Below the pieces are notes generated by a model. That model was not told where the DNA came from, did not search any database, and worked only from the letters and a program-made list of their open reading frames with translations. The position numbers and the translations under genes were made by a program. This document shows, piece by piece, positions 13,111-64,000 of a DNA stretch of 64,000 bases. The stretch comes from Lunularia cruciata (lineage: Eukaryota > Streptophyta > Marchantiopsida > Lunulariales > Lunulariaceae). Numbering within the stretch: the stretch's first letter is position 1; each line of letters starts with the position of its first letter. Location: NCBI GenBank assembly GCA_948567375.1, contig OX419762.1:36871034-36935033 (forward strand), given 5' to 3'.

Positions 13111-13130
13111 TAACCCGTCAATTTCATTGC

Positions 13131-27480: not shown

Positions 27481-27483
27481 TTT

Positions 27484-28791: not shown

Positions 28792-29059
28792 TAAAGCTAC
28801 ACAAATACTACCACCTTCATCAACTAGTTCTCAAGATTAGTAATGGAGATAATCTTTCAACTTATGGATGAATTATCCATGAGGGTTTGATTAATATGCA
28901 CTCTAGAATTTGATATTTCTATAGAAATCTTGGAGTAATTGGAACCTTTTGTGATCCCTAGGGTGGATTATTCTCAAATGGTGTTAGTCATGTACAATTC
29001 TATTAGTTATAGAGTGTGAGAAAAGAAAAGAAAAAATTGGAGAGAAAGATAGTGAGGAG

Positions 29060-30802: not shown

Positions 30803-31920
30803 GAGCAACATGTACAATTGATCAATGGCACAAAGGGCCCTTGAGGATTAGGCCATCAAACACTAGAGTCATAGTTCCAATCACTAACACCACCAACACT
30901 TCACATTTAGATACACCATCTTCTAATTATTGGGAATCAGATTCAAAAGAAGGAGCTTCAAGTGTGAACACAAGCATGGAGGACAAGATTTCCATGGAGG
31001 ATGATGAATCTGAATTTAGTTTTGATGTGTATTCCTTGTGTCCTATGGATTTTGCACCAAAGCCAAAGGTTTTGAAGGACCCAGGTAAATCACCATTGAC
31101 ACTTGAGGAGATAGAGAGGAGGTTATCTACCCTCAAGTATGATCCAAATGCTAACAAGGAGGAGAAGGTGAGATTTAAGGAGATTTTTTGCAAGTTCATC
31201 CACTTATTTGTTTTTGATTACAAAGATCTCAAGGAAGTCACCTTGGAGGAGCACAAGATAGAGGTGGCATCACATGCAAGACCAGTCTACCAAAATTAAT
31301 GTTGCATTAGCCCCCCAATAATTTTGGTAATGAAGGAGGAGATTGATAAGCTCAAGGAGGCTGGATTTATCTTTGAGATGGAGAATTCAAAATGGGTGTC
31401 TCCAATTGTGATTTTGAAGAAAAAGAATGGCAAACTTTGGGTATGTGTGGATTATAAGAAGCTCAATGTTGTTACCAAAAAGGTTTACTATCCATTACCA
31501 TTCATTGATGAGATCTTGGAGGAGGTTGCAGATCATGAGAGGTATAGTTTTGGAGATGGTTATAGTGGATATAACCAAATCAAGATTTTACCAGAGCATC
31601 AACAAATCACCACATTCACCACACCTTGGGGAACTTATGCTTTCAAGATCATGCCTTTTGGGCTTTACAATGCTCCAACCACATTCCAATGCTTCATGAA
31701 CACGGTATTTGAATCTTTCATTGGGAAATTTGTGAGAGACTTCATTGATGACTTTTGTCTCTATGGGAGCAAGGAGGAGCACTTTTAGCACCTAATCAAG
31801 GTCTTACAATGCTTGGATGAAGCAAATGCATCACTCAACCTAGAGAAGTGCATATTTGGATGTGAAGGTGGTCTACTTTTGGGGCACATCATCTCCAAGG
31901 ATGGAATAGCAGTTGATATT
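30803..31920 (+). pseudogene. E1 reverse transcriptase
   Basis: A linker (30799-31299) is followed by the RT: KWVSPIVILKKKNGKLWVCV, DYKKLN, YSFGDGYSGYNQI, FTTPWGTYAFKIMPFGL and the catalytic FIDDF (31741-31755), then LNLEKCIFGCEGG. The catalytic aspartates are intact here, but stops occur near 31298 and 31786. The polymerase would copy element RNA to DNA. Confidence 0.75.
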
Positions 31921-32420
31921 AAGAAGAGGAGGAGAGTTTATAGGAAGCATTACAACAGCCATGCTATGACATTTCTCTATCACACATAGAGTATTACATC
32001 TTATAAGCCAAATTCCAATGGCTTGGTAGAGAGAACCAATTTGGCCTTGTGCATGATGTTGTTGGCCAAAGATGCAAAAATGGAGAGGGTTAAATACAAT
32101 TAGGACAAGAGGATTCATGTAGTTTTGTGGGAGTATAGGACAAGCATGAAGAATTACATAGGATATTCTCTATTTCAATTGGTATATGGTATTGAGTCTA
32201 CTTTACCTATTCACTTTGATCTTCCTACCTTCCAAAGCATTCATATGAGATTTAAGAAAGCACAAGGAGGTGATGTAGAGAAGTCAAGGAAGGATCAACT
32301 CATGGAATTGGAAAAAGCAAGAGCAATTACTTTGGTTCAATTGGAGCAAGTCCAAAGGAAACAAAAGTAGATCTTGACAAGAGGCAAGGCAAGAAGAAGG
32401 TGGAGCATTTCAAAGAGTTA
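31921..32420 (+). pseudogene. E1 integrase C-terminal remnant after internal deletion
   Basis: Directly after the RT (KDGIAVDIKKR) the sequence jumps to integrase text: SNGLVERTNLALCMML, then LWEYRTSMKNYIGYSLFQLV and YGIESTLPIHFDLP. RNase H and the catalytic core are therefore deleted. The tail RGKARRRW ends at the E2 insertion. Confidence 0.65.
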
Positions 32421-33751: not shown

Positions 33752-34867
33752 TTGGGTATTGAAGGAACCATGGATCCGCAGTTGCAAGCGCTAGTGCAAG
33801 GAATGCAAGGAATGCAAGGGATGTTGAATGAATTTCGAGAGATTAAGATGACCATGGAGACATTGCAAAGTCAAGTGCAGATCCTCAGGAACGATCAAGC
33901 CATGCAAGAAGAAGAGCCGTCTCAAAACCCAGTACCTACGAATGAAGTACTTGGAGAGGCACCCGTGCCTACGAACCCTATCAACGATGAAGCCACATTG
34001 CTACTCCGGATGAAGAAGACCTGCAACATCGAGCCTTACAAGGGGCAGCGTACAATGGGAGTAGTAGAGAATTGGATCTCGAGAATGAATCGATATTTTT
34101 GATTGTTCTCAACAGAGATCACAGAGCATGCTGCAGGCGTGTTTGCATGTGGGTACTTGACCAATAAAGCCCTCACATGGTATGATGCTTGGGAATGATC
34201 CATGCTGGCAGAGAGAAGAGAGGTCACATGGACAGCAATGCAAGAAGGACTGCTCAAGAATTTCCAATCGGTGGATTCTATGCAGATGGCTCAAACCCGA
34301 CTATGGGGATTGAGACAGAAGAATAGCGTACAAGAGTATGTGGAGGCATTTCTGGATCTACAAGTCGCAATTACCAACATGAGTCCAGCAGAGGCTCTCG
34401 ACAATTTCAAACGAGGGTTGAAAGAGCGGATTCGCCAAGAAGTCATGGTGCAAAACCCTCGCACGGTATTTGAAGCTATTGCTTGTGCGCAAAGAATAGC
34501 TGGAGCATTAGGTGGAGGTGAAGGAGTAGTTCCACCTCAACATTATCGGGCAGAAATGCTACACATGGGTAGACCAGTACCAATGGAATTGGGCAACCTT
34601 CGATTCTGAGATCGAGGAGCACGGCTGCTTCAAGGGGAGCGGGGACGGGTAGAAGAACAAAGAGATGGAGTCCCACGAGGAGAAGGGACTCGAGGAGAAC
34701 AACGCCGTTGTTACAATTGTGGCCGTATTGGGCACATATCTACCAATTGTCGCACTTGTTTCCCTAGAGGCCTTTGGCCTTTGTACAGGCAATCCTTGAA
34801 CAACATGGAGAGGCACATTGAAGAAGAGGAGGTGGAAACCACTTTGGAAAACAAAGATCGCCAGTAA
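33752..34867 (+). pseudogene. gag: E2 gag
   Basis: One frame of about 370 codons starts at 33752 (a second ATG at 33770, MDPQLQALVQGMQGMQ). It carries a short coiled coil, capsid segments (IEPYKGQRTMGVVENWISRM, TWTAMQEGLLKNFQ, LWGLRQKNSVQEYVEAF) and a zinc knuckle CYNCGRIGHISTNC at 34709-34750, and ends at TAA 34865-34867. In-frame stops lie at about 34102, 34197 and 34607. The pol frame that follows is a different one. Confidence 0.85.
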
Positions 34868-34949
34868 ATGTACCTCGCGGCCTTACTGGCTCAATAAGGA
34901 AGTAGAGAAGTGAGGGAAGGAAGAAGAATAATGCGCAAAGATCCCAAAA

Positions 34950-35502
34950 GGTAACCTCACAATTGATTGTCGTAAATGGAATCCTAGAAGGTAATCAAGT
35001 GAGAGTATTAATAGATCCGGGAGCAACAGAGAATTTCTTGTCTCGCTCTATTGCAATAAGCTTGGGAATGGACCTAGAGAGAGATGGAAGTGAAGAAGTA
35101 GAGTTACCAAATGGGCAAACAGAGAGGATTGAATCATTACCTAGACGGGTAACCCTCTCTGTAGGAGAATATCAGGAAGCAATTGAGTGGCGAGTGATAT
35201 AGTTAGCCCGTTATGATGCAATTTTAGGCATGCCATGGATGGAGCAGTACAACCCAATGGTGGATTGGAGGAAGAAAGTAGTGAGAACCCACCAATGGTC
35301 AATCATTAGGGTTAAAGAAAAATCACACATGCAGAAACTGCCTCTATATGTCGTAGGGACGACAACTGTCTTTAAGACCGATAGATGTTTTATGGGTCTA
35401 ATAAGAGAAGTCCAGAGTGCACAACTCGCTGGAAAAATTCCTGAGAAATTGAAGGATGTGGTGGATGAGTTTCAAGATGTCTTTCCCGATGATCTACCCT
35501 GA
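34950..35502 (+). pseudogene. E2 aspartic protease
   Basis: VRVLIDPGATENFLSRSI carries the active-site Asp (35014-35016) in DPG context rather than D(S/T)G. The decayed relative E4 also has Asp-Pro here (about 40958), so proline seems ancestral to this family. ILGMPWMEQYNP is the conserved C-terminal region. Stops at 35200-35202 (TAG; E4 has TGG) and 35500-35502 (TGA) interrupt it. Confidence 0.75.
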
Positions 35503-36720
35503 GGATTACCACCTAAAAGGCGAGTAGATCACAAAATAGAGACACTCCCGAGGAAGACACCTCCTTGTAAGGCCCCATATCGCCTATTACCTCATGAGTT
35601 GGAGGAATGTAAGACTCAAATTGAGGAGATGCTACAAAAAGGGTTCATCCAACCTAGCGTATCACCATATGGGGCCCCTGTCTTGTTTGTGAAGAAGAAG
35701 GATGGTACAATGCGCATGTGCATTGACTATCGGGGTCTCAATCAGCAAACAATGAAGAACAAATACCCCTTACCTCGCATGGATGACCTGTTTGATCAAC
35801 TCCATGGAGCGAGATACTTCACCAAACTGGACATGCAGAGCGGTTACAATCAAATCCAAATTATAGAGGATGATGTGTACAAAACTGCCTTTCGAACTAG
35901 GTATGGCCACTTTGAGTATCTTGTGATGCCTTTTGGCCTCACCAATGCGCCTGCCACTTTCATGAGCCTAATGAATGACATATTTTGTCCATACTTGGAT
36001 AAGTCTGTTATCGTCTTCTTGGATGATATCTTAGTATATAGTAGCACGATGACAGAACACAAACAACATCTACGAGAAGTCCTCCAGATTCTAAGACAGA
36101 ATCAGTTGTACGCCAAAATCTCAAAGTGTGAGTTTGGCAAGTCTGAAGTAGACTACTTAGGGCATAGAGTAAGTGCAGAGGGCATTCAAGTATTGACAGA
36201 TAAAATAGAGGTCATTCAAAAATGGAGTGTTCCAGAAGATCAGACTCAACTTAAGAGCTTCTTGGGGTTGACGGGATTCTATCGTAGATTTGTCAAGGAC
36301 TTCTCCAAGGTTGCACAGCCTTTAATGGCACTACTTGGCAAGGGGAAGAAGTGGACATGGGGAACTGCACAAGAGTTGGCCTTTCAAGAATTGAAGGCCG
36401 CCTTGTTACATGCACCAATCTTGAAGTGGTATGACCCAAAACGTCCAATCAAGTTGGCTACGGATGCATCAGGCGTAGCAGTAGGAGCAGTCCTACAACA
36501 AGAGTGGCATGACGGATCGCATCCAATTGCATATTTCTCTTGAAAGTTGTTACCGGTAGAGCGCAACTACCACACCACAGAATGAGAAGAGCTGGCCATC
36601 GTTCTAGCAACCAAGCATTGGAAGCACTACCTGGGCAAGAAGGCATTTGTAGTAGAGATAGACCACAAACCTCTAGTCTACCTCGAGACGCAAAAGGATC
36701 TATCTCATTGCCAAATTCGG
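35503..36720 (+). pseudogene. E2 reverse transcriptase and RNase H
   Basis: RT motifs are complete: [59 protein letters not shown] and the catalytic FLDD (Asp pair at 36022-36027). The connection [11 protein letters not shown] and [17 protein letters not shown] follows. RNase H begins with [16 protein letters not shown] and continues after stops at 36541-36543 and 36583-36585 to the EIDHKPLVYL segment. Length and motif order are typical of Ty3/Gypsy. Confidence 0.9.
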
Positions 36721-38060
36721 TGGGCAGAGTGGCGACAATGCTTCAACATGACAATCACCTACGTGGAAGGTAAGAAGCAACTTGTAGATGCATTCACCCG
36801 CATGCCAATGGCCAACAACTTGGTGGCAAAGGTTAAGATTAACCCTGAATTCTGGCAAAAGATTCTAGCTGCTACAAAAACTGATCCACAGATTGTAGAA
36901 GCGCAATCGTCCAAAGGTGTCACCTGCACCCAAAGACTCACCTTTTGGGAGGGCCGATTGTGGATCCCAAATGTCCCAGAACTACGCACCACCATTCTAG
37001 CAGAATGTCATGATTCGGCCATTGCAGCTCATGTCGGAGTGGACAAGACCTTGGAAGCAGTCAAGCGCCATTACTATTGGCCCAAGATGAGCAACGACGT
37101 GATGGACTATGTGCGTAGCTGCCTACTTTGTCAACAGAACAAAGCTTCTAATCAAGCTCTTGCAGGGCTCCTTCAACCTCTTCCCACTCCTACCCAACGT
37201 TGGGAATAAGTGAGTATGGATCTCGTCTGTGAATTACCCAAGACCACCTCAGGGTTTGACTCCATTGTGGTCTTTGTGGACCGGCTCAGCAAAATGATTC
37301 ATGTACGCCCTACCACCAAGGAGGTGACCGCTCCACAACTAGCTCAACTATACTTAGATGCAGTCTTTGCTCACCATGGCTTGTCTAAAGTACTCATCAC
37401 CGATAGAGGCACCCAATTCACCAATTTGTTTTGGCGAACACTCTTTGGTTTCTTCAAAACCAAGTTGGCCATGTCTATAGCTTACCACCCACAAACAGAT
37501 GGCCAAACAGAGCGGGCTAATCGCACGATTGAAGACATGTTACGCGGCTTCACCTTAGAAGAGCAAGAGAGGTGGGACACCCTACTACCGTTGGTGGAAT
37601 TCACTTACAACAATTCAGTGAATGCCTCCACCCAGGTCACTCCGTTCTTCCTCATGTATGGTGAGCATCCCTTCACACCTTCTAGCTTGATGAAGATCCG
37701 TCCAGTGACTACCAAGGTTGATGCAATCAACACATTTGTTTCTAGAATCCAACAAGGTGCGGAGAGCGCCAAGCACAGGTTACAGATTGCACAAAATCGA
37801 CAAAAGCAGTATGCTGATGCACACCGTAGGCACATGGAGTTCAATGTTGGGGATCAAGTGTGGCTATCGACAACCAACCTCACATTAGTTGGATCTCGTA
37901 AGCTCAGACCTTGTTTTATTGGGCCTTTGTCGATTCTTCGTCGCATCGGCGCTGTGGCCTATCACCTTAAGCTACCACCAAACATGAAGATCCATCCAGT
38001 GTTCCATGTCTCCCTATTACGCAGATATGCTCCCCGATCAGGCCAAGGTACTTCCACACA
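36721..38060 (+). pseudogene. E2 integrase
   Basis: The zinc-binding HHCC domain (HDSAIAAHVGVDKT, then CLLCQQNK near 37120) is followed by a core with Asp at 37219, Asp at 37402 (LITDRGTQF) and Glu at 37510 (TDGQTERANR), a DD35E spacing. The GPLSIL segment near 37920 corresponds to the GPY/F module. A stop at 37207-37209 precedes the core. Integrase inserts the cDNA into the genome. Confidence 0.9.
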
Positions 38061-38089
38061 GGACACTCGACCTTGTCCGACAATCATTG

Positions 38090-38290
38090 ATGGCATAGAG
38101 GAATATGAAGTGGAGCGGATTCTCCAAAAGCGCATGCGTGGTACTCGCCATCCGCGGGTGGAATATCTAGTACATAGAAAGGTTACCCCCTCTATGAAGC
38201 AACCTGGGAACCCGCTGCCAATTTGGCACATGCACCGGTGTTGGTGCAAGCATTTGAGCAACAATTGCACAATGAGGACGTTGCGTCTTA
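38090..38290 (+). pseudogene. E2 chromodomain, frameshifted
   Basis: EEYEVERILQKRM and HPRVEYLVH match the N-terminal half of a chromodomain, the histone-methyl-lysine reader that chromoviruses carry at the integrase C-terminus. After VHRK the frame is lost; the second half (with LYEATWEP-like text) is found in the next frame. This defines E2 as a chromovirus. Confidence 0.85.
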
Positions 38291-38304
38291 AAAGGAGGGA
38301 GGTC
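38289..38304 (+). other. E2 polypurine tract
   Basis: AAAAGGAGGGAGGTC lies directly before the 3' LTR and would prime plus-strand synthesis. Confidence 0.85.
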
Positions 38305-39041
38305 TGTAATACCAAGGGTTAGCCATATGATCTAGATGTGAAATTTGGTTTGGTAACATCTAGAATGATGTTATACATGATGGTCAAAATATATCAAATA
38401 GAAGTATCACCAAAAGAGTACTTCTACCAATAGGGCAAAAACCAAAATAGACTTGAGAACCTTAGAACCAATAGCTAGACATATGATTTAAAGGTGAGAA
38501 TTGGTTTGGTAACATTTGGAAGGATGTTACACATGATGGACTAAACAGATCAGAAAGAGGTATCACCAAAAGAGGACTTCTACTAATAGAGTAGGAACCG
38601 AAATATGCCTGAAATCTTTGAAGGCAATTTCGGAGGCCTAAACGGATGAATTAGGCCTCAAAAATGTGCAGGTTCTCCCCAACAAAGGAAAGGCTAGCCT
38701 TCCCTCCCCCTGGTTTGTCTCGTCGAGAGCTTTCCAACGGTACCTTACTCTTGTGATTCTGAGATTCCTACAGGAAGATTCCCTAAAAGATTCCCTCCGG
38801 TCAAAGCTCGTTTGACCAACCAGATAGGACCTAGACCAAACAAGGTCACCCATCCAAGTAAGTAATCCAAGGGTGGATCTTGTTGACATGTCACCTATCT
38901 GTGTCCCTAATCCTATGGTGGAGCTTCCTTGGAGGAGATCCTCTTTGCCTATATAATAAAGAGAAGGTGCTCCCCTGGGGCATCGAATGTTTGAGTGTGC
39001 AATTTGTGTTTTCTCTCTTCTCTTGTCCTTGGAGTATTACA
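38305..39041 (+). repeat. E2 3' LTR
   Basis: 737 bp, the same length as the 5' LTR, with about 16 substitutions counted by eye and no length difference. Followed by the AATAA duplication. Confidence 0.95.
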
Positions 39042-49586: not shown

Positions 49587-50272
49587 CGTAACATCCATTT
49601 ATACATGTGTGTGATATTGTGATATTTAGTTTGGTATAACACGTACTTAACAGATATTATTTATATAGAGATAAAGGATAGTTCTAAATTAGTCATGATT
49701 AGCTAAAGTTAGTTATAGTTAAGATAGAGGGGACTTTACTTTAGAGGAAATGAAAAAGATGAGCATCACTATTTTGGATTCTAGTGTGTTGACTTGGTAT
49801 TATTCTTAGGTGTTTGGTTTTGAGGAAAGAGTTGAGAACTCTTGGGCCAATAAGCCTTTTTGGTTTGGATTCTTCTATTGTTCAAGGATAGCTCATGTGA
49901 AGAAATCTTTGACTTAGTGGTTGGGTCAAGACAAGATCACATGCTTAGGAGAATATTCCCATGAGTATGGATATTTCTTTAAATTTTTTACTTTATTTGA
50001 CTTTTAGCCTAGTAAGTTAAGTTACTCTAGTAATTAGTAATTTAGGTGCGTAACTATTTTATAAGTATATAAATAAGGGGTGAGGAGGTACTCATCATCC
50101 TTTAATTTGCAACTATCTCTCTCTCATTGAGTTCTCCAGTGAGTCATGTCTTGAGTCTTGGAGTGTTAGCCTTAGAGGAGTATGATGGATTTGGGATTCC
50201 TTGTCTTCTTAGTCCATGTTACCATAATAACCATCAGAGGTTCATCTTGAGTGAGAGGTAGGCCGGCTTACA
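49587..50272 (+). repeat. E5 5' LTR
   Basis: 686 bp, alignable to the E1 5' LTR. The first base is C instead of T (CGTAACATCC). It ends CTTACA, followed by the primer site TTGGTTCCATAGCCGTGA at 50276-50293. Confidence 0.85.
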
Positions 50273-51152
50273 TTTTTGGTTCCATAGCCGTGATCTCTCT
50301 AGAAGGCAAGATAATGTTCCGTATATAATTTTATATTAGATAGAACGAGGCTATGAGAGTTCACTTGGAGAGAACATTAGGGTAGGAGAGAGTTGAACTT
50401 ATGTTAAAGAACTTGGATATATTTTTATATCTGGTAGTTCATTATGATGTCTTTGAGATGATTTTGTTCATCTTGTACACATGAGAGGATTTGGAGAGGT
50501 TTTGTGAAGTGGATTGGAGATTTTGGGGATTAAGATGATTTTGCATAAAATTCAAAGTTTGAAATCTAGACTTGAAATTTCTATACATAATAGCTTACGT
50601 TATTCTTTAGTTAGCACATTTAAAATTATTGTGAGAACTACTATGCGCACAAGGGTAGAATTTTTGAAACTTGGTAGTGTAAACTGCTCCTGTAATTACA
50701 TGCTCTCTTGAAAATTAAGTAGAGTCTGTCATTTCTTCAGGTTTTTAGTGGATTGTTTTGAAACTTCCCAAGAAATTTCAATGCATTGTATCCTACCTGT
50801 TGACTTAAAATTTAGAGAAAGATCATTCTCTTGTAGAGAGTTATAATTTTTTAAGTGGAGGGTGGTTTCCAAACCAAATCTGAAATATATGTACTGAATA
50901 GAAAGATGCCTAGGCCAAATGGATTTATAAAAAGATCTGAAATTTTTTAAGGAGTGATGCCCTATAGTTGTGATCAAGTCTGAAAATTTTCAAATGATTG
51001 TGACATACAAGTTGAGAGATTTGAGTGACATTGCAAGGGGGGTTCAATTCTGCAAAGTTGAGATCTCATGTATAAGAAGTGTGAGAGCAACAAAAGCATG
51101 TTTGAGTGTTTAGACTCGTCTTGAGAACATGGTGGGTCAATAAAAGTATAAA

Positions 51153-51476
51153 TTGAAGCTATACAAGGTTCCTCAAGAGTTTGAGGTGATTGTAAGGGTG
51201 GATTTGAGGAAAAGAGAGTTTAGAATAAAATTTGAAGACAATGTTGAGAGGATCCAAAAACCAACATCACTTGGGAGAAAGAGTGAGTCCAAGTGCTTTC
51301 TATGTGGAGAGAAGGAAAGTAAGGCAATTTCATGTCCATTGACCTTTGAGAACAAGAGATTGAGGGAAAGGAGAGGCTTACTTGACTTGGGTTTGCATGT
51401 TGGACCTTCTTCACCAAGATTGGGAGGGAGAAGATCTAAAACCAAGGAGTTGTGTGAGGTTTGTGGAATGGAGTGA
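51153..51476 (+). pseudogene. E5 leader ORF with Cys/His motifs
   Basis: An open frame of 107 codons contains RIQKPTSLGRKSESKCFLCG, ISCPLTFENKRLRERRGLLD and KTKELCEVCG. It has the same layout as the E1 leader ORF (28203-28791). The first Cys cluster reads CFLCGEKESKAISC, a knuckle-like spacing with Ser in place of the His. Confidence 0.45.
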
Positions 51477-51829
51477 CATGAGTGTAGTAGAGTAAAAGCA
51501 CTTTTCGAGACTTTGGTGAAGGATCTTGGAAAGAGTCTTAGTATAGCTACAAAAATACTACCTCCTTCATCAACTAGTTTTCAAGATTAGTGATGGAGAT
51601 AATTTTTCAACTTATGGATAAACTATCCATGAGGGTTTGATAAATATGCACTCTAGGATTTGATGTTGCTATAGAAATCTTGGAGCAACCTGAACCTTTT
51701 ATGTTCCCTAGGGTCAATTACTCTCAAATGGTGTTAGTGATGTACATACTCTATTAGTCATAGAGTGAAAATTTTATTTTTTTTGAGAGAAAGATAGTGA
51801 GGGGTTAAGATGGGAAATTTTTGGTTTTC

Positions 51830-52600
51830 TTTGGCAAGGATGGAGAAGATATGGAGGCCTTTGTAAGAGATTTCAAGAGAGCTTGCATAGAAAACAATGA
51901 CAGGAGGAAGAATGAGAGATTGATGAGTAAGGTTACCTTTCTCAAGCAAGGAGATGGATAGAAAGTGAAAGTCTATGTAGAAAGAGTGGAAAAGTTATTG
52001 TCTAGATTTTGCATAATGTTGAAGGAGGGTGAAAATGATGTGGAGACTACTATGATTGGCAAAAGAGATATGATCACCAAGAAGTTTGTAGGAGATTTGA
52101 GACCACAAATTAGAAGCAAGGTGAGATATGAGAAACCTTCTTCCAAGGTTGAAGCTATCAAGATTACAATTCGTGTGGAAGAGAGTTTGGAAGAGGATGA
52201 GAGTGATTTGGTGGTGAAGGAGGTTGTGCATCCTCCTCAAGGTTACAAGTATGGTGGACCTTTTGATACTTTGGTGGCAAGGGTTTCATTACAAGTAGTA
52301 GTTGCTCTAGTTCTTGCACCTCCACCAAAAGATCCACCTCAAACCATCACAAAACAAGTTGTAGATCTCAAGATCAATGTGGTACAACTATAGAAGAAGA
52401 GAGAGGTGGATCAGAATGTAAGGAGAGTGCTAAGGAGTTATGGATAGCTATCCATATAGAGGAAAGCCAACCAACCAACAATTTCAATGATATAATTTTT
52501 TTTTGGTTGTGGAGAAAGAAGCCACATCCAAAGGAATTGCCCAAAGTCCACTTACCATGGAAGAAGGGGTTATGAGGGAGCCAATAGAGAGAAAGAGGGA
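51830..52600 (+). pseudogene. gag: E5 gag
   Basis: VYVERVEKLLSRFCIMLKEG, VGDLRPQIRSKVRYEKPSSK and VVKEVVHPPQGYK match the E1 gag. Where E1 has an intact knuckle, E5 (about 52500-52560) has a frameshift after a T-run, so the Cys/His ligands fall in different frames. Confidence 0.75.
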
Positions 52601-53089
52601 GGTAGTGAAACTCAAGTGGCTCCTAATCCAAACAAAGGTAAGGAGATAACATCTATAGATGTGGTTGAGAGCAAGGATGAGAAGGGAGAGTGCTCAAACT
52701 CCAAGGGTCTTAATTTGGAGCTTTTGGCACAAGAGAAGAAGAGACTTGTTTTGCATAGGATGTGCACTCTTCTCAAGGATACTCTTATGTCTACTAGGAG
52801 CATTTGCACCTCAACACCATCAACAACAAAGAGTCCAAGAAAGAAGTTGGAGATAGAGGACTTCTTGATCTCCAAGCAACAATGGAAGTACAATGTGTTG
52901 GAGGATGTTGGTAGTCACAGGGTTAACATCAAAATGGGCCAATTGATTGCTTTGAACCCTACCTTGAGAAAGGAGCTTAGAGGTGGTTTGAGTTCTACAA
53001 AGAGCAAGAGGAAGAAGCAAGCAAAAGCTCTAGTATCAATGGGAGTGGTGGATGCCAAGCCAACACCATGGGAGGCTTGTGAATATGCC

Positions 53090-53380
53090 TCCAAGATTGA
53101 TGTGAGACTGAATGTCACAACATTAAGGATGCATTGGTTGATGGAGGATCAACAATGAATGCCATGTCAGAAAGGTTGATGAAGAAAGTGTGTATGATAC
53201 CCTCTAGACCTTCAACATTTGTGGTGAACATAACAAACAAGCAACAAGTTCAACCAGTGGGGGTGATGGATTAGGTGGTAGTTTCAATTATGGGAATTCA
53301 AAATCTCATGACTTTTCAAGTCTTAAAGGATTCAAGCTATGATTTACTTCTTGGGAGGCCATGGTTGAGAGCAGCATGCG
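53090..53380 (+). pseudogene. E5 aspartic protease
   Basis: LVDGGSTMNAMSERLMKK-type text with Asp at 53140-53142 and LLLGRPWLRAACA at the end. It preserves the same DGG as E1. Confidence 0.65.
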
Positions 53381-53387
53381 CAACTAA

Positions 53388-54600
53388 TTGATGGCACAAA
53401 GGTCTTTGAGGATTGGGGCATCAATCTATAGAGTCATAGTTATAATCACTAACACCACCAACACTTCACATTCACATACACCATCTTCTTATTATTGGGA
53501 ATCAGATTCAAAAGAAGGAGCTTCAGGTGTGGACATAAGCATGGAGGAGGAGAATTCCACGGAGGAGGATGAATCTGAATTTGATTCATATGTGTATCCC
53601 TTGTGTGCTATGGATTTTGCACCTAAGCCAGAGGTTTTGAAGGACCTAGATAAATCACAATTGACACTTGAGGAAATAGAGAGGAGGTTATCTACCTTCA
53701 AATATGGCCCAAATGTTACCAAGGAGGAGAAGGTGAGATTTGGAGAGAGTTTCTGCAAGTTCATCCACATGTTTGCTTTTAGTTACAAGGATCCAAAGGA
53801 AGTCACCTTGGAGGAGCATAAGATAGAGGTGGAGTCATATGCAAGACAAAAGCAACATTCCATTAGCCCACCAATAGCTTTGGTTGTGAAGGAGGAGATG
53901 GATAAGCTCAAGGAGGTTGGATTTATCTTTGAGGTGGAGAATTCAAAATGTGTGTTTCTAATTGTGATTGTGAAGGAAAAGTATGGCAACCTTTGGGTAT
54001 GTACAAATTACAAGATTATGTGTGGGTTGTTACAAAGAAGGACTACTTCCCATTACCATTCATTGATGAGATCTTGGAGGAGGTTGCAAGTCATGAGAGG
54101 TATAGTTTTGGAGATGGTTATAATGGATATAACCAAATCAAGATTGCACTAGAGCATCAATAACTCACCACATTCACCACTTTCAACAGCATGCCTTTTG
54201 GACTTTGCAATGCTCCAGCCCCATTCCAATGGTCCATGCATAAGGTATTTGAACCTTTCATTGGGAAATTTTTGTGATACTTCATTAATGACTTTTGTGT
54301 CTATGGGAGTAAGGAGGAGCACTTTGAGCACCTAATCAAGATCTTGCAATACTTGGATGAAGAGAATATATCACTCAACCTAGAGAAGTGCTCTTTTGGA
54401 TGTGAAGAAGGTCTACTTTTGGGGCACATCATCTCCAAGGATGGAATAGCAATTGAACATGAAAAGATGAGGAAAATCTTAGACCTTCCATTGCCTTCAA
54501 GCTTGAAAAAGTTATGCCAATTCTTGGAGATGGTTGGGTACTATAGGAGGTTCATCTTCTCATTTTCCAACAAGGTTTATGCATTGACCATCTACATGAA
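53388..54600 (+). pseudogene. E5 reverse transcriptase
   Basis: The linker (SESEFDSYVYPLCAMDFAP-like) and RT segments (KLKEVGFIFEVENSK, YSFGDGYNGYNQIKIA, MPFGLCNAP) match E1. The catalytic box reads FINDF: the first Asp is Asn, so the polymerase is dead. LNLEKCSFGCEEGLLLGHII and FLEMVGYYRRFIFSFS follow. Confidence 0.8.
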
Positions 54601-55175
54601 GAAGGGTGTAGATTACATGGTGATTTTGGAAGACAAGGAGACTCTTAAAGTTTTTGAGGAGTTCAAGCAATCCCTTGTTGTAGCTTCAATTCTTGCTAAA
54701 CCTGATTGCAGTAAGCCTTTCATCCTCTATATTGATGCTTCTAATGTAGCTATAGGATGCACTCTTAGCCAATTGGACCAAGATGGGCATGATCATCCAA
54801 TAGCTTATGCTAGTAGACAGATGGTTTTAGTAAAAAATAATTACTCTATTACGTAGAGAGAAGTGTTGGTAGTGATCTTTGGTCTAAAGAAGTTTAGACA
54901 CTACTTGATTGCAGGGAAAGTCACCATTATCGTAGATCACAAGGCTTTGAAGTACGTCTTCAACAAGCCTTATGTGGAAGGGAAGCTAGCAAGGTGAATG
55001 ATACTCTTGTCTGAGTATGACTACACCATTGAGGATAGGTCAGAGACGAAATATGCAAATGTTGATTTGTTATCTAGTGCTTATGATCATGATAGAGATG
55101 AGCCAATGGATGATTCCTTCCCAGATGAGGAGCTCATGACAATCTTAGTCACTCAAGAGGTTGTCACGCCATTTG
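54601..55175 (+). pseudogene. E5 RNase H
   Basis: FILYIDASNVAIGCTLSQ carries the first catalytic Asp, IIVDHKALKYVFNKP a later one, and ANVDLLSSAYDHD ends the domain. Stops lie at about 54854 and 54995. The following acidic tail MDDSFPDEELMTI leads to the E6 junction. Confidence 0.8.
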
Positions 55176-56212
55176 TAGTGTTGCATCTAGATTGCTCAGA
55201 CACTAGAGTTTTAGTGATAGTAGTTAGAGTTATTTTTGTAGTATCTTAGAGACTACTTTCCGATGGTCAGATTTGGTGTTTGGGGTACTGATTTCACGGT
55301 GGGGCCCACCGTCACTTTGCATCGTTTGCACCGTCGAGTGTGCCATCAGTGGGACCATTTGGGTTTTAGAGCTAGCTCAAGTCCAGGGGTATAGTTTTGA
55401 AGTGAGCTTGAGAGAGCTCACTTCTCTGATGTTGAGCCTTTGAGTTCCTGGTTATGGTGGACAGAGGCCGGTGAGCGTCACCTGGATTCTCTATGCTTGA
55501 GTGGGTGTGGCTTGACTGTTAACAGTGCCCAGTTGTTGGCAGTTTATAGAGTGACAAATCAAGTACTGATCTGAGTTGAGTTGAGTTGAGAGTGGTAAGC
55601 AATCTGATTACATCAGAGAAGTGAAGTCAAAGGGAAATCGGGTGCAGGAACTTTGAGTGTTGGTGGTATCTCCAAACTCGGTGGATCATTGGTAGCTCGA
55701 TTCAAGTTCAATGTTTCTCTAGTGTGCAGAAGCTCATTTGATTGATACAAATTTGGCAGTTAGGCGGACGGTGTGCGGAAGCGCTGGCCAAATTTCGAGT
55801 AAAGAAGGAGCAAATTTTGAGCAGTGGTTGTGATTTTGAGCTCAAGAGGTGAAGGTAGGACCAATTTGCTGCGAGTTGGGCTCAAAAAGTCAAATTGAAG
55901 TTGGAGTTGTGAAGCTATTCTCATGAATTTGTGATTTGGAGAAACTTGTGTTGTCAATTTGGCTCGAGTGGAAAGTTAGCTAGGGATTTGGTGGACAACC
56001 AACTTTAGGGTTTACGTCAGATTTTGGTTGGGATTTACGTTAGATTTTGGCCAGATTTGGAGGAGTTTTGCTATTTTGAGGCTTCAAGGCATAGGGCTAT
56101 GAGAGGCTACAAAGGCCTAGAAGGGCTTGCAAGCCAGCTTGCTGGCGTGAGGCTAGCTAGTTTAGAGTAGATCTTGGTCATTGGTTGGCAAAATCTGCCT
56201 TTCATGCTAGAT

Positions 56213-56386: not shown

Positions 56387-56764
56387 ATGAGATGAAGGGT
56401 TTTTGTTTAGATTTCATGTGATTGGACCCCCCTCCATTCTCTGCTTCTTGTTTGTGCACCATGTTGTGTGAGGTGCCCTGACTTTTGAGCGTTGGTGCTT
56501 TTGGTGTGCTCTCAATGGTGAGGCTAGAGTGATGACCAGTCCGACTACCTTTGTTTCTCTCCGAAGAGGCAGGAAGTGATGACCTACAGACCGTGAAAGT
56601 GCGTGTTATGATGGCAGGTTACAAGTTGCGCTTTCCCCTAGTGTAGTTATCTTGGTTAGAGTTACATCAGTGGGTGGTGCTTAGTTGGTATTGGCACATG
56701 GTGGTGTTGGCACTTGCGGTTGCAATTGGTGGTTTGGGTTTGCTATTGTGGTTATTTTGTCACG

Positions 56765-58453
56765 ATGGAGTTCTTTGGAGATTCTAGAAGAGTTAGCCCT
56801 ACAGTATGCAATGGGTTTACTCGGAGTGGTGCTCGGTATCAGCCTGTATCTCAAGTCCCAATGAGGGAGGAGATTGACTCTGAGTTGGAGTTTGACAGAG
56901 GAGCTGATTCAGTTGAGAGTGCACTTGGTGTGTCCGCACCGTTGTTGTGGGACATGGATGAAATTTATGGGACCTCCAAAGGCCCTAGGCGTTACTCTAG
57001 TACAATGGATACCATTGAGTTGGATGACTTCATCCAAGAGTTCGATAGTTGGTGTGATTTGTAGCAGAGGTAGAACCCGACTTTGTTCACACCCTTCATG
57101 GCATGGAAGGGGTTGTTTCAGCACTTGGAGGGTCTGCCAATGGATGACTACCATGAGTTTAGGAGAACTCATTTGGAGGAGATTGAGTTATGGAGACAGT
57201 ATTGGTCTCCACACTATGTCTCCATCACTTTAGGCTTGGTGGCCAAGAGTAGATTGGTTGTACCTACGAGTTCTAGCTCAAGTAGTGTGGGTGGAGCTAG
57301 TGGAGGTGCACTAGCTGGTGATAGTGCTACTACGAGTGGAGGTACCGCTGTAGGAGGTGGTGTGGTATTGGGGTTTAACACCATGGTGGAGTTCTTCCTA
57401 TGTTTGAGGCTGAATTACCTGGGAGTGCGGACTGACAAGTTGAGGAGCTTGCAAGAGTTCCAGCGAAAGGCTAGAGAGAGCCTACGTGAGGCATACACTT
57501 GCATGAGGTGGTTGATTAGTTTCACTCAAGGAGTTACTGAGGGCCGGGCAGTCCAGTTTTGGTATGGGATATTGGAGAGAGAGTTACGACATAGAGTTTG
57601 TGATGCTACGTTGTTGTAGGCTACTTTGCCTACTTTGGCAGTAGTCTTTGGTTTGGCTGAGCGTATTGAGCTCAACATGGTGGAGGAGAGAGTGGTGACA
57701 TCTGGATTTGGTAGGGAGACCTCATCCACGGCTGTGACTTCTTCTAGAGTGCAGTAGAGTGCACCATGCCCAGTTGGTTTTTGAGGACAGGGTGGACAGC
57801 CCAAATCCTATGGAGCGAGTAGAGGGCCTAGTGGAGTTAGACCCTTACCTTCATTTTTGGGTCAACAACAGCCAATGAGTGGTGGTGTTGCTTATTGGAC
57901 TTGTGGTGGACCTCACCATCCAAGAGAGTGTACTCAAGGAAGTGGACCTGATACCTTGGGTGCATCACAGCCAACATAGAGGCAGTGTGAGCATTGCCAC
58001 AGATTTGGTCACACTAGTGACCGGTGTTTTGACCTACACCCGGAGTTACGGAGTGGTCGGGCTGCTATGGCAGGTAGTAGAGGAGCTCCAGTTCATGGAG
58101 GACAAGGTGGTGTTAGAGGATCTACACCTAGTAGGGGTGCAGTACCTACCTTTACTTCTGACACAGCTATGGCTACTCGGATTGAGCCGTTGGAACAAAG
58201 ATTGGCTAGTATGGCTATTGCTCAGAGGAGATCAGATTCGAGTGCTGAGGCTTCCACCTCATATGCAGGTGATAGAGATGCTTTGGACTTCATGTGCGGA
58301 GCAGCACAAGTGGATGCATCTACAGTAGTGACTAGGAGTGTAGTACGTGCTCCAAAGCCTAGAGGAGCATCAGTGGAGTTGGACCCACAGAGAGAAGAGG
58401 TTGGGAGACAGGTCAGACTTCCCCAGTCTTTCATGCTATCTGATGCATTGTAG
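56765..58453 (+). pseudogene. gag: E6 gag with two zinc knuckles
   Basis: One frame from ATG 56765, interrupted by stops at about 57062, 57617, 57754, 57781 and 57976. It has an acidic N-part, a Ser/Gly-rich linker (about 57260-57370), then capsid text: FFLCLRLNYLGVRTDKLRSL, FQRKARESLREAYTCMRWLI, and FWYGILERELRHRV. The first knuckle (about 57896-57930) has Tyr for the first Cys. The second, CEHCHRFGHTSDRC at 57986-58027, is a perfect CX2CX4HX4C. The frame ends at TAG 58451-58453, and pol continues in the same frame. Confidence 0.75.
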
Positions 58454-58564
58454 ACAACATCCATGGTTCCTAGATGTCCCAGTGCAAGTGTGGTAGGTGG
58501 TGATGGAGTGCATGATGGACTACTTGCTAGTTAGCCACCTGCTACTACACAAACTGAGTCTAGC

Positions 58565-59500
58565 ATGATGTTGGGGGCGGCTCAGCTGATTATGCGGCGT
58601 CCTTTGTTTTTGGCCAATGATATGTTTACATTGGGAGTTGACCCAGCCCCAGTATTCCAATTGGCTGCCATGTTGTGTGAGAGTAGGGATGGTGCAGTTC
58701 CTACTACTAGAGCAGAGGTGGTTGGTAGTGGAGCTGACTTGGTTGAGGAGCATGGGATCCGTTCAGCAACCAGTGGTTTATGGCAAGCAACAACAGCTAG
58801 ACTAGAGGAGTTGCTAGCTAGACCAGCCTTTGAGAGAGCATGGTTTACACCTGGTGTTGTCCTATTGGATAACCAGAGGGGGATTTTTTGTTTGGTGAGA
58901 CCTTCAAGGAAGGTCTATACACCATATAGAGTCTTGTTAGACTCTGGTTCACAGCCTCTTATGTTGGGGAAGGCTGCAGTTGTCGGTCTGGAGTTACGGA
59001 AGACCGATGTGGAGAGGTGTACATTTCAGATCCAGACATCTCTTGGTAGTGGTTCGACATAGTACATCATACATGGAGAGCTTGTTGTCTAGGTTTAGCC
59101 TGGTCATCTGATTGATAGCTCGGTGGTGAGAGCTCAGGCTATTGCGACAATAGCTGAGTCATATGATACCCCATATGTGTTATACCCCATGGGTTTCAGC
59201 ATTGACTATTTGGAGGAGACAGCCTCTTATAGACCTGGTTGGCAGTCTGGTGAGGGACGGGTATGTTGCCTACCAATACGCTTCAGTAGTGGCAGTCTTG
59301 GCTCACTACAGTTTGGGACCATGGCAACATCAGTTTTAGCTTTTAGTGGTGCAGTTACTTGGCCTGGTGACTTGTTGGAGAGGAATGCCCATGCAGAGGA
59401 TACTCCAATACCAGAGGAGATCACTCGGCTTTGGAGTACAAGTGGGATTGTTCCATCCACTTTGGATGTTCCATTGTGGAGTTTAGAGGAGGCATTGTAG
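58565..59500 (+). pseudogene. E6 aspartic protease and linker
   Basis: YRVLLDSGSQPLMLGKAAVV contains a canonical DSG (Asp at 58940-58942). After stops at about 59060-59100 the conserved second half reads VLYPMGFSIDYLEETASYRP. A linker follows (LWSTSGIVPSTLDVPLWSLE), with a stop at about 59498, leading into the methyltransferase. Confidence 0.7.
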
Positions 59501-59599
59501 CAGCATGCATATCAGTTGGTGCAGCAGGCTTGGAGTGAAGCCTTCGTACCATCAAGAGATGAGTGTGAGGATGAGCCTCCAGAGGCGATTGCTTTGACA

Positions 59600-60572
59600 C
59601 CTCTGGATACCATACTCATTGCTTGGCATTATCCGGTAGAGGGAATATGCCTATTGGAGTTGTTTGGTAGGATCAGCACCGGACTAGCTGTGGTGTTACA
59701 GGCGGGTAAACGAGTACAAAGGTACTTGTATGTAGAGAGAGATGAGATTGCTAGGCAAGTCTCCTACATCATGTGGCACACTTGGCCTATCGGTATCCGG
59801 ATTTATTATTGATGTCAGCAGTCAGAGGTTACCAGAAGGCCCTAGAGGAGACATTTCCATATTGGGGGCGCATGACCTAGAGAGACATGGGCCTATTCAC
59901 TTGGTGATTTCTGGATGGCCATGTTAGGGACATACACATGCTGGTAGAGGATTGGGTCTTCAAGATCCTTGTTTTGGTGTGTTTTGGGAGATGTTACGGA
60001 TACTATGACATCTCCAGGTTCATCAGTCTATTTCTCCAGTTTACCTTTTGGAGAATGTTCCTTTGATGGGTGATTCTTGCACTAGAGTGGTGGGGAGTAC
60101 ACATCAAGTCCATTCTTGGATGGGACCTGCTGTATTGTTAGATGCAACCAGAGTGGGATCATAGGCTCATTGTCTTTGTCTTTGGTGGACGAACCTCTTA
60201 TCCAAAGAGGTTCTACAGCGCGCTTATGATGGGATTCAGCGACTTGACCACATCCTTATTGATGATATCTTGGATGTTGGGCGTTAGTCTCATACAGTGG
60301 TAGTGGCTGATAGGTCACCTATGGCAATGGTGAACCTAGTTGGACAGCCTAGAGCTACATTTCCCACACTCATGAGTTTCCTAGGCTCTCATGCTTTTTG
60401 AGAGGGAGGACTTGGACTTGTTTGGGACTTATAGTTACAGTAGTTGGTGGAGCCCAACGCTAATGAGAGAAAGCGGGCAATGGGTTTTTGCACCGGTACT
60501 ACCGCTGTTCCAGCAATGTCAGAGGCATCCAGGCGTCAGGTGTTAGGTCAGGCTATGGACCTAACTGTTTGA
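59600..60572 (+). pseudogene. C5-cytosine DNA methyltransferase, DNMT3-like, inside E6 pol
   Basis: C5-MTase motifs occur in canonical order. Motif I: LLELFGRISTGL (59651-59686, SAM-binding loop). Motif II: YLYVERDE (59723-59746). Motif IV: HLVISGWPC with the catalytic Cys at 59922-59924, followed by TAG where Gln is expected. Motif VI: YLLENVP (Glu-Asn-Val at 60051-60059). Motif VIII: LLDATRVGS and, after a TAG, LWWTNL (60180-60197), like the FWGNL of DNMT3. Then ERKRAMGF (60465-60488) and motif X RRQVLGQAMDL. About 325 codons matches a DNMT3 catalytic domain without a large target-recognition insert. Plant DRM enzymes are circularly permuted; this one is not. The frame shifts twice between 59770 and 59860, so no enzyme can be made. 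Confidence 0.75.
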
Positions 60573-61240
60573 CCTGGATTGTGAGCCTTGGCTTGGCAAA
60601 GCAGCATAGGATGCACTTGATAGGCATCACCACTCGAACACTTGTGAGCCCTGTGCCTATCGAGACAATTCAGGCACATGCTGGGGGCGATGGACCGAGT
60701 GGACATGGTATTCTTGGGACACAATCTGTAGCTACTAGGGAGAGTGGTCTACTTGGAGTCCATCCAAGTGAGCGTGGACTACTTGGATTACACCCTTGGT
60801 CCACAAGGGATGTAGCTAGAGGACGTGTGGAGCTTGCAGCCAGAGTGGAGGGAGTTTTTCACACAGAGGTTGGGACCTCTAGTGGTCGGGAGCATGACAC
60901 TATTGCTCCCAAGGGCCCAGTGTAGCAGCCAATTAGTCCGTCTTCCATTCCTACTACAGTTACAGAGGATACTTGGGAGTCAGATCTTGGACCCAAGCTT
61001 ATTGGAGAGGAAAGACGTAGGGTTTGGAGGTTCTTGAGGAGTCACACGAGTTAATTTGCCTTCAGTATGAAGGATTTGGGTGCTCTAAAGGGACCTGGTA
61101 TACGGATTGAGCTAACTAGCGACACACCAGTTTTCTGACATCCTTATTGATATAGTGATATGGAGAGGACATTGATTTAGAGCCGGAGAAGTGACCTTTT
61201 TGAAGCTGGTTTGGTGGAGACTTCACATGGAGAGTAAGCA
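60573..61240 (+). pseudogene. E6 MTase-RT linker
   Basis: After a frameshift, LTWIVSLGLAKQHR continues from motif X. Then comes a long hydrophilic linker with two similar units (SGLLGVHPSERGLLGLHPW), a stop at about 60923, and text leading into the RT (GPGIRIELTSDTPVF). Confidence 0.5.
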
Positions 61241-61830
61241 TCAGCGACAGTGATGCCAGCCAAGAAGGATATGGATGGCAACTATATAGATAGGCGGATG
61301 TGTGGAGATTACCGTCCTATCAACCGATAGACCAGGGCTGATCGGTTTGCCATGCCTACACCGGAGGAGATTTTTGATGTGATTGGGCATGCAAAGATCT
61401 TTAGTACTTTGGATCTTTGAGTGGGATATCATCAATTACCAATCAAGGAGGAGGATAAGACCAAGATAGCATTTTGGGCTATTGATCCTCATGGCAAGGA
61501 TGTGTTATATCAATGGAGGTTCTTACCATTTGGGTTAAAGAACGCTCTTGCTGAGTTCCACATGGTCATGGATAGGATCGTAGCTGGATTGGATTTTGCT
61601 CGGTGCTATATTGATGGCATTTTGGTTTATAGCACTACTATGGAAGAGCATGAGAGACAGTTGTTAGAGGTGTTTGAGAGGTTGAGATCTCATGGACTCA
61701 AATTACATCCTGGGAAGTGTAGGTTCTTCCACGAGCATATTGGGTATTTGGGTCACACTATCTACCGCGGAGGACTTGGTGTTCAGCAGACCAAGGTGGA
61801 AGCTATTGCACGTATTCCTTGGCCTACGGA
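61241..61830 (+). pseudogene. E6 reverse transcriptase
   Basis: RMCGDYRPINR, AKIFSTLDL, VGYHQLPIKEEDKTKIAFW, RFLPFGLKNALAEF and the catalytic box RCYIDGILVYS, where the second Asp of the expected YxDD is Gly. HPGKCRFFHEHIGYLGHTI follows. An 11-bp tandem duplication (GAGCACAATGC at 61834 and 61845) shifts the frame at the end of the domain. Motif order and spacing are Ty3/Gypsy. Confidence 0.8.
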
Positions 61831-62430
61831 TGTGAGCACAATGCGAGCACAATGCGAGCATTCCTTGGGTTGGAAAACTTCTATTGCCGCTATGTTAGAG
61901 GATTTAGTGCCATTGCCAAGGCCTTGACAAAGCTGACCAAGCTTACACAGGAGTGGTGTTGGGGAGATGAGCAGGAGAGAGCTTTTGTAGAGCTCAAGGA
62001 GAGGTTGACATCTGCTCCTATTTTGAGGAGACCAATCAAGGGATGACCATTTCAGGTTCACACTGATTGGAGTATGTTGGGGCTTGGAACGATGCTCACC
62101 CAACATGATGATGAGGGGAAGGAGTTTGTGGTGGCCTATGCTAGTTGCTCCAACAATTCAGCAGAGGCGAAGTATAGTTCATATGAGGGAGAGTGCTTGG
62201 CAGCAATTTGGGCAGTAGCACATTTCCAATGTTACCTATTTGGTAACCCCTTCACTCTAACCATTGATCATTAGCCACTAAAGTGGTTGATGGAGTCCGA
62301 CAAGCTTTCATGGAAGCTTGCACAATGGGCACTAATTTTACAAGAGTATGATTTCACGATTGTTCATAGACCTAGAGTGGTGAATCGTGATGCAGATGGA
62401 TTGAGTAGAAACCCATGTCCCAACCAGTAG
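61831..62430 (+). pseudogene. E6 RNase H
   Basis: AFLGLENFYCRYVRGFS and CWGDEQERAFVELKERLTSA precede RNase H. The catalytic positions are VHTDWS (Asp), YEGECLAAIWA (Glu), LTIDH (Asp) and NRDADGLSR (Asp), all visible. Stops lie at 62044 and 62273. Confidence 0.8.
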
Positions 62431-62639
62431 GATCAGACCGGAGCACGTTGGCATGGTGAGACAGATGAGGAGATGGTGCCAGGTTGGCATGCATCGGCCC
62501 TTCTATGTACATTTGCAGAGGCTTTGGTGGTATCTCTCTCAATGCATACAAGAGGAGTTATTGAGGTCATAGATCTAGAGAGTGAAGATATTGGTACAGT
62601 TCAGCAAGACATTCATGATGATGTCTAAGTGATGGACTA

Positions 62640-63615
62640 TCTTCACACTGCTTTTGTGGGTGGCACAGTTGGGGCCAAGGAGAGAGACCATGTTCTTCAG
62701 CGGGCCAGACAGTTCAGATTGGAGGGTAGACATCTTTTGCGTGTATGGGAGGATGGTAGAGTGTGAGTAGTACCCCTTCCATCTCAGAGACCACAATTGG
62801 TCTGTCATGCTCATGAGGAGCTAGGACATTTTGGAGTAAAGCGTACATATAGCTTACTCCAAAGTCAGTATTGGTGGTGCGGTATGCAAACTGAGGTACA
62901 GCAGTTTGTTCCCAGATGTGTGGTTTGTGACCAAGTTAGAGCATCATTCAATGCTCCTACGCCATAGTTACACCCATTACCTATCATGGGATTGGGTTAC
63001 CATTGGAGTTTGGACTTTGCCGGACCTTTACCGCTGACTGTGAGACATCATCGGTATGTTTTGGTGATGGTGGAGCACTTCTCCAAGTGGATTGAGTTGG
63101 TGGCACTTCCTGACAAAGTCTAGTGAAGGGACAACTTACTCATTCTTGGATCAAGTTCTTAGTCATTTTGGTGCACCAGCTGAGGTTTTGAATGATCATG
63201 GTACAGAGTTCTTGGGGGAGTTTCAGGTCTTGTATGACAAGGCCTTGATTGATCATCGTACTACATCCCGAGATCACTCTGAGGCAAATGCCTTAGCAGA
63301 GAGAGTGGTTCAGACGGTGAAGAGAGGATTGTGAAAGTATGGTTTGCAGAGAGGCCACTTGGGAGATTGGGATCTCCAATTACCTTGGTTGGCCATGGGC
63401 TATCGGTTCAGCCGGAAAGCCTCCTTAGCATCCTTCTCTCCATACTTTCTACTCTATGGACAAGATCTAGATTTACCTACAGCCATTTGTCGAGATGCTA
63501 GTGTACTTTTGGACTTGGATGACCCCGATGTATGGATGAACGCATGTTCTCAGCGGGTAGAGATCTTTTGGAGAGTGATGCCGATGGTCTTTGAGAACTT
63601 GGCGATTGCTTAGCA
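62640..63615 (+). pseudogene. E6 integrase
   Basis: The zinc domain is HEELGHFGVKRTY with CVVC near 62925. The core has Asp in WSLDFAGP (63013-63015), Asp in VLNDHGTEF (63194-63196) and Glu in ALAERVVQTVK (63299-63301), close to DD35E spacing. A frameshift with a TAG-TGA pair lies near 63120. LPWLAMGYRFSRKASLASFS and YFLLYGQDLDLP follow. The catalytic triad residues are all present although the frame is broken. Confidence 0.8.
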
Positions 63616-64000
63616 TAGAGATACTTTATGTTATGCTACCATTCAAGGAGGAGGTTATAGACCCCCGATCCGCTGATTTTCATCCAGACGACTATGTATA
63701 TCTACAGCAGACAGTACCGACAACACTTGATGTTTCTACAAGCCGCACTATCTTGAGAGTGCACGAGGTTTTGCCATCTAGAGTCCTTGTATTAGAAGGA
63801 CATGATGGTGTTGTTTGGAAAGATCATGTGCGCCCTGCCACCTCCCAAACATTGATGGTACTATGGACCCAAGCTTGGCACTTGTACGTGCAGGCTTGAG
63901 GTGTATGTTATGTGGCTCTTCTGGTGGAGCTGCTACTATGTTAATGTGTGATAGCTGTTTGAGAGGATGGCATATGGCATGTTTGACTCCTCCCCTCACG
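63616..64000 (+). pseudogene. E6 integrase tail and PHD finger (cut by window end)
   Basis: DYVYLQQTVPTTLDVSTSRT and VVWKDHVRP form the integrase C-terminal tail in one frame. In the next frame, after LPNIDGTMDPSLALV, a C4HC3 zinc finger begins at 63902: CMLC, 11 residues, CDSC, four residues, His, two residues, Cys (GWHMACLTPP). This spacing and the CD.C...GWH..CL wording are diagnostic of PHD fingers, readers of histone H3 tails. The final CxxC pair lies beyond the window. A small indel near 63830-63890 separates the finger from the integrase frame. Confidence 0.8.

Follow-up and report, generated by a model that had tools for sequence, protein, structure and literature searches.

The 64,000-nucleotide stretch of DNA analysed here (the window) carries near its 3' end an old and broken copy of a split-repeat Ty3/Gypsy retrotransposon, whose first open reading frame (ORF1) very probably encodes, as judged from sequence, a DNMT3-type cytosine-5 (C5) DNA methyltransferase (MTase). 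The copy spans approximately 55162-64875, its 3' end lying 875 bp beyond the window, and no further copy of the MTase element was found within the 64-kb window. A first-pass annotation had proposed such an element here; beyond it, our analysis revealed split repeats, a readthrough-type stop that places the MTase in the frame of gag, a PHD finger, and many genomic copies. The best overall explanation, which we consider moderately probable, is that the window copy is a decayed member of a recently active family that would produce the MTase at gag level, reach its second frame (ORF2) by readthrough, methylate its own complementary DNA (cDNA), and target insertion through the PHD finger.

Identity of the methyltransferase and its genomic copies

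Analysis of the three-frame translation of 59500-60700 revealed C5-MTase motifs I, IV, VI, and VIII followed by an MGF...LG block, in canonical order and spread over three frames with stops, within 59645-60569. This order is as the first-pass annotation had read it, and unbroken copies elsewhere agree. The longest window piece (59793-60569) lies narrowly above the Pfam cut-off (PF00145, 22.8 bits; cut-off 22), and the first 29 of its 43 PDB rows are DNMT3A/B/C. When the window pieces were joined with X masks, the DNMT3A match improved to E = 5.3e-07. The profile search that the annotation had proposed is also positive in an unbroken copy from the same genome, with 33.7 bits for PF00145 and E = 3.7e-10 for DNMT3A. 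Of the 54 PDB rows for this copy, the first 29 are again DNMT3A/B/C, followed by HaeIII (4.3e-4), DNMT2 (~0.04; 0.038), and DRM (0.07). Inspection by eye of eight copies, A-H, which were picked for long frames and read as 10-kb pieces, showed that the C5-MTase motifs are kept (PCQ and ENV in 8/8, the RxR of motif VIII in 7/8, LFGGISTG in 6/8) and that private changes are scattered; copy H has a stop inside the MTase.

Several results temper this identification. The N-terminal piece of the window MTase alone gave no Pfam or PDB match, the X-masked join reached only 17.6 bits for PF00145, below the cut-off, and the longest window piece is matched as well by a profile of phage MTases (phrog_116, 28.7 bits) and, far under the cut-off of 100.65, by the bacterial dcm model (21.7). 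Comparison with the host DNMT3 (L001, L027) and DRM (L002) MTase exons, which encode the same C5-MTase kind, gave 30% identity over 71 amino acids (aa; 37.0 bits) for DNMT3 and 30% over 128 aa (39.3 bits) for DRM. Because these pairwise scores are nearly equal, it is motif order and PDB ranking that assign the element MTase to DNMT3 rather than to DRM. The host DRM is permuted, and the host DNMT3 contains introns and has a DUF3444-like exon after it, whereas the element MTase is neither permuted nor split by introns; its MGF...LG block does not precede motif I as in DRM. A DRM or CMT origin was rejected on the canonical motif order, the PDB ranking, and the host-exon comparison, and motif order together with the closest structures upholds the annotation's preference for DNMT3 over DRM, MET1, and CMT. 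Since the element MTase is only about 30% identical to the host exons, it does not stem from a recent capture of host DNMT3 or DRM.

The genome searched is a 565.8-Mb assembly of 74 contigs. In the Pfam C5-MTase search, the best 123 of 2161 candidates were scored; most cover the same profile stretch, many within frames of several hundred to 1428 aa. In the search with the MTase of the unbroken copy, the best 128 of 12,977 candidates show 95-100% identity, residues 1-310 being covered by 127 of them and residues 2-310 by one. As the best candidates alone were scored, 128 copies is a lower bound. The MTase stretch is free of stops in 77 of the 128, and the remaining 51 carry 50 TAG, 14 TGA, and no TAA in-frame stops (split and stop counts tallied by eye, twice). 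The intact genomic copies that the annotation had called for were thus found: at least 128 full-length MTase matches, 77 of them stop-free. These data point to a family that is many-copy and recently active. No intact copies lacking the MTase were seen, which is a small test, copies A-H and L005-L008 having been found via their MTase. The MTase is present in all of three further, older copies met by chance in flanking DNA (L023, L024, L025), and a fourth chance remnant (L016) contains a partial MTase and no reverse transcriptase (RT) in the stretch examined. The second family copies in L023, L024, and L025 are situated near others, some of them close and in the same orientation.

A related Gypsy element lies on the minus strand of L022 (~3264-5453) in an uninterrupted frame of 1611 aa, with 36% identity in RT and 34% in integrase. 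It has no MTase or PHD match at E 1e-5, and it is possibly an outgroup that predates the gain of the MTase. Searches with tblastn for relatives confirmed none in viral_contigs (MTase and RT queries) or in genome_contigs.

Architecture of the element

The element is approximately 9.9 kb long and begins with a 450-bp A repeat; after the coding part come a B repeat of ~107 bp and then A and B again (A-internal-B-A-B). Ordinary long terminal repeats at both ends, as in Ty3/Gypsy elements, are lacking; the repeats are split direct repeats of the DIRS kind. The Ty3/Gypsy assignment made by the annotation is borne out by RT, RNase H, and DDE integrase, which follow one another in the Ty3/Gypsy order in copies A and E, where Integrase_H2C2 and rve gave Pfam matches. 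No match to a tyrosine recombinase was found in the frames scanned, the rve integrase being found instead. The element ends are TGTC...GACA, and a 4-bp target duplication flanks five of the seven copies examined (A, C, E, F, and the window copy, but not D or H). In the window copy it is AGGT, matched at the 3' end in the downstream stretch (L009). The Kimura two-parameter distance (K2P) between the two A repeats is 0.009-0.027 in five copies, 0.11 in copy D, and 0.119 in the window copy; some copies are young, and the window copy is old. In copy A (L011), the B1/A2 junction is the palindrome GACAGCTGTC, two bases longer than the integrated ends GACA/TGTC; it resembles a circle junction and may be an integrase substrate.

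Features of the window copy, with positions in the window.
Feature	Position	Strand	Evidence and remarks
5' A repeat of split-repeat element	55162..55610	+	88.8-89.3% identical to that of copy A; A2 and B repeats past the window end (L009)
ORF1 remains (gag-protease-MTase), interrupted by stops and frameshifts	56684..60925	+	start approximate, mapped from copy A
gag CCHC zinc knuckle CEHCHRFGHTSDRC	57986..58027	+	read in ORF 57980-58453; gag presumed from the motif
Aspartic protease active-site motif DSGSQ	58940..58954	+	read in ORF 58535-59062; protease presumed from the motif
DNMT3-type C5 cytosine methyltransferase domain (very probable), decayed here	59645..60569	+	PF00145 22.8 bits on 59793-60569; closest PDB DNMT3A; unbroken copies elsewhere in the genome
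ORF1 stop TAG, then CAG CCA (CARYYA readthrough motif)	60923..60931	+	read from sequence; kept in 27/28 other copies sampled
Reverse transcriptase, open piece tested; RNase H then to ~62400	61421..61834	+	RVT_1 74.7 bits
Integrase (zinc-binding and DDE core)	62760..63300	+	mapped from copy A, to which 59846-64000 has a 93% DNA match
C-terminal PHD finger, truncated at the window end	63902..64000	+	PF00628 33.9 bits; ~39 bp more in L009

Measured from stop to stop, ORF1 of copies A and B has 1428 aa, a single open frame that runs through gag, protease, and MTase and ends after the MTase. The protease rests on the DSG motif. In the window, the DSGSQ motif upstream and the RVT_1 match downstream place the MTase between protease and RT, as the annotation had stated. 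The window pieces carrying the CCHC knuckle (ORF 57980-58453) and the protease motif (ORF 58535-59062) have no Pfam match, nor have the integrase pieces 63068-63334 and 63335-63613, each taken alone. ORF2, where open (copies D and E), is 1037 aa and comprises RT, RNase H, integrase, and a C-terminal PHD finger.

ORF2 continues in the same frame after the TAG of ORF1. The nine bases TAG CAG CCA close ORF1 in all eight copies A-H and in 19 of 20 further copies drawn from the list of the 128 best MTase matches; the last reads TAG CAG CCT, so that the TAG itself is kept in 28/28, the window copy standing outside this sample. UAG-CARYYA is the efficient readthrough motif of tobamoviruses (PMC3542737), and 27 of the 28 copies carry this type I (tobamovirus-like) motif. 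Readthrough of the ORF1 UAG is therefore likely from the sequence.

The PHD finger is of the C4HC3 type (PF00628, 42.6 bits in copy A and 40.9 bits in copy E). All eight zinc ligands are kept in 17 of the 20 further copies; of the others, one has a stop, one has lost a cysteine, and one shows no PHD in the stretch examined. The closest solved relatives are the PHD fingers of CHD4, KMT2D/C, PHF12, DPF3, and KDM5B, with ATXR5 also listed, and we take several of them to be readers of the unmodified histone H3 tail.

Host methylation, proposed mechanism, and alternatives

Analysis of the host MTase genes identified a DRM gene with permuted motif order (L002), a gene that is CMT-like by eye (L003), and a DNMT3-like gene (L001) whose best PDB row is DNMT3C (2.4e-15) and which lies beside an exon whose DUF3444 match (25.7 bits, E 1e-5) falls just short of the cut-off of 26.1. 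DNMT3 together with DUF3444 is reported for non-flowering streptophytes and was not found in angiosperms (PMC6453930). In each of the three stretches compared, CAG/CTG is more depleted than any other of the 32 trinucleotides, with values of 0.43 for 1-56600 (1.4 kb of it from the element), 0.58 for 1-26000, and 0.61 for 56600-64000. In the window-copy MTase, at sites invariant in the eight other copies, C-to-T changes affect 17/82 CHG, 11/46 CG, and 5/269 CHH sites, so that 28 of 33 fall in CG and CHG. This concentration shows that the window copy was methylated at CG and CHG, and decay of this kind would be expected to yield TAG and TGA stops. From the DRM gene, the DNMT3-like gene with its DUF3444-like exon, and the CHG-type decay, the host is probably a non-flowering streptophyte. 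Of the land-plant host that the annotation had supposed, the streptophyte part is probable; land plants and charophytes are not separated by these features.

The proposed mechanism is as follows. Ribosomes would mostly halt at the UAG, so that the MTase is made at the dose of the structural protein gag and packaged into the particle, and readthrough would give the less abundant part with RT, integrase, and PHD finger. Prior to or during integration, the MTase would methylate the cDNA of the element itself, chiefly at CG, and new copies would thus resemble host heterochromatin on arrival. Through its PHD finger, the integrase polyprotein would direct insertion towards nucleosomes whose H3 tail is unmodified. 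SymbioDIRS DNMT3s methylate CG in yeast (PMC5890265), and chromatin readers on other Gypsy elements are proposed to tether insertion (PMC12477816). We advance cDNA self-methylation as the main role of the MTase only tentatively, at somewhat below an even chance. The wider proposal, that the element writes and reads its own silent chromatin on insertion through a gag-level DNMT3 in the particle and an H3-tail PHD on the integrase, and hence reached a high copy number in a heavily CG/CHG-methylating plant, is speculative and rather unlikely as a whole.

Changes shared among copies include 10 synonymous changes in the MTase (5.8 expected, P 0.034) and 9 nonsynonymous ones (12.1 expected, P 0.105), and in RT (seven copies) 8 synonymous (4.2 expected) and 6 nonsynonymous (8.9 expected). 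The pooled pN/pS, with private and shared changes mixed, is 0.46. These counts weakly suggest that the MTase is under constraint similar to that on RT. A number of observations count against the mechanism proposed above. Private changes in the MTase (37 nonsynonymous and 15 synonymous, with 34.9 and 12.6 expected from a context-matched neutral draw) are neutral-like, and the selection test covers eight copies (seven for RT) chosen for long frames. The gag part of ORF1 is weakly identified, by the CCHC knuckle and by a Retrotrans_gag match in copy A that stays under the threshold (13.9 bits; cut-off 24.1), and the ligand preference of the PHD finger is judged from its relatives. Host methylation reaches the copies anyway, as the C-to-T decay at both CG and CHG indicates. 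The enzyme of Klebsormidium nitens gave no methylation in yeast, a result that its authors call inconclusive (PMC5890265).

The same gag-level MTase could serve restraint rather than stealth: through methylation of its cDNA or of sibling copies, the family would silence itself and do less harm to its host. De Mendoza et al. name this option (PMC5890265), and it agrees with the CG decay, which shows that the window copy was methylated, and with the large size of the family. However, the family still grew to at least 128 near-identical copies, and CHG decay is as heavy as CG decay, which points to host enzymes rather than to a CG-type DNMT3; we regard restraint as having roughly one chance in a few. 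Because restraint and stealth use the same molecular step, they are inseparable by sequence, as is a use of methylation to protect the cDNA. A role away from DNA, as a structural or RNA-binding part of gag or in RNA methylation, is less probable still. The MTase shares ORF1 with gag, the constraint on it is weak, and RNA methylation was proposed for an enzyme of a Symbiodinium long interspersed nuclear element (LINE; PMC5890265), yet the PCQ and ENV motifs are kept in every one of the eight copies and RxR in seven, and the similarity is to DNMT3 rather than to the RNA enzyme DNMT2 (E 3.7e-10 versus 0.038).

Two further alternatives can be set aside. The window copy is broken and is the only one in the window, as would be the case had a fragment or pseudogene of host DNMT3 been inserted there by chance. 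This was ruled out, and is virtually inconceivable, given at least 128 full-length copies elsewhere, a single 1428-aa open frame shared with gag and protease in copies A and B, and the low identity to the host exons over the aligned parts. The preponderance of TAG among the in-frame stops of the 51 interrupted matches would also fit a host that decodes TAG as an amino acid, which would make the TAG between the frames, like those in decayed copies, a sense codon and readthrough unnecessary. An alternative code was rejected as highly improbable, since 77 of the 128 MTase matches lack any stop and since the CAG/CTG depletion and the C-to-T pattern predict TAG and TGA from decay. Readthrough at this TAG, with the MTase consequently at gag level and in the particle because ribosomes would mostly stop there, remains the reading we favour.

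Comparison with known systems and other features of the window

Retrotransposon DNMTs, including one in a streptophyte Gypsy element, have been known since 2018 (PMC5890265), in keeping with the charophyte and dinoflagellate precedents that the annotation had named. The closest likeness is to KnitGypsy-Dnmt3 of K. nitens (PMC5890265), which shares the Gypsy domains, an intronless DNMT3 of canonical order, a DIRS-like repeat order, and a streptophyte host, a comparison drawn from its published description. In KnitGypsy-Dnmt3 the DNMT lies in the Pol ORF, whereas here the MTase lies in the gag-protease frame and is split from RT by the conserved UAG-CAG-CCA. The PHD finger is C-terminal here, and the word PHD does not occur in the main text of PMC5890265 on KnitGypsy-Dnmt3. 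The same paper gives fewer DNMT-bearing copies for K. nitens (in context, fewer than for Symbiodinium), against at least 128 here. SymbioDIRS-Dnmt3 of Symbiodinium resembles the present element in being a retrotransposon with a DNMT3 and split repeats, but it has a tyrosine recombinase where the element here has a DDE integrase (PMC5890265). In Gypsy elements with a chromodomain or, in Ectocarpus, a Tudor domain, the reader is likewise C-terminal on the integrase polyprotein (PMC12477816); here the reader is a PHD finger. PHD fingers are known on Ginger1 transposases, whose integrase is Gypsy-like (PMC2836005), and, according to a title in a reference list, in CR1-like LINEs.

What appears new is that there is a second streptophyte family, numbering 128 copies or more, in which the MTase sits in the gag frame ahead of a conserved stop of the readthrough type and the integrase polyprotein bears a PHD finger. 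The combination of MTase, readthrough stop, and PHD finger was not found reported in the literature searched, which comprised few subscription journals and largely titles and the starts of abstracts. With a DNA methylator and a finger that reads chromatin, the element is equipped with the kind of machinery by which hosts silence elements like it. The question of why a transposon should carry an enzyme of the class that silences it becomes testable with so many near-identical copies, the MTase being unbroken in most of those scored, and the gag-frame position and the PHD finger yield specific predictions on dose and targeting.

The window contains other repeats and elements. At 33800-38322 lies a chromovirus-like Gypsy element; its open frames are long, its integrase has an SH3-type tail, and it gives a weak match to a chromodomain. 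Two copies of another Gypsy-like element, 81-86% identical, occupy 26792-31933 and 49588-54473. On the minus strand at 4527-7156, one U2-like and three U5-like small nuclear RNA (snRNA) matches fall within 2.6 kb, two of the U5-like matches mostly inside a 510-bp duplication (6180-6689 and 7055-7562), and they are possibly pseudogenes. No plant snRNA upstream element turned up above these matches, which gives no support from there for a plant host. A further duplicated stretch, with 74% identity between its copies, lies at 651-1771 and 13127-14287, the second of which holds a TPR-repeat reading frame.
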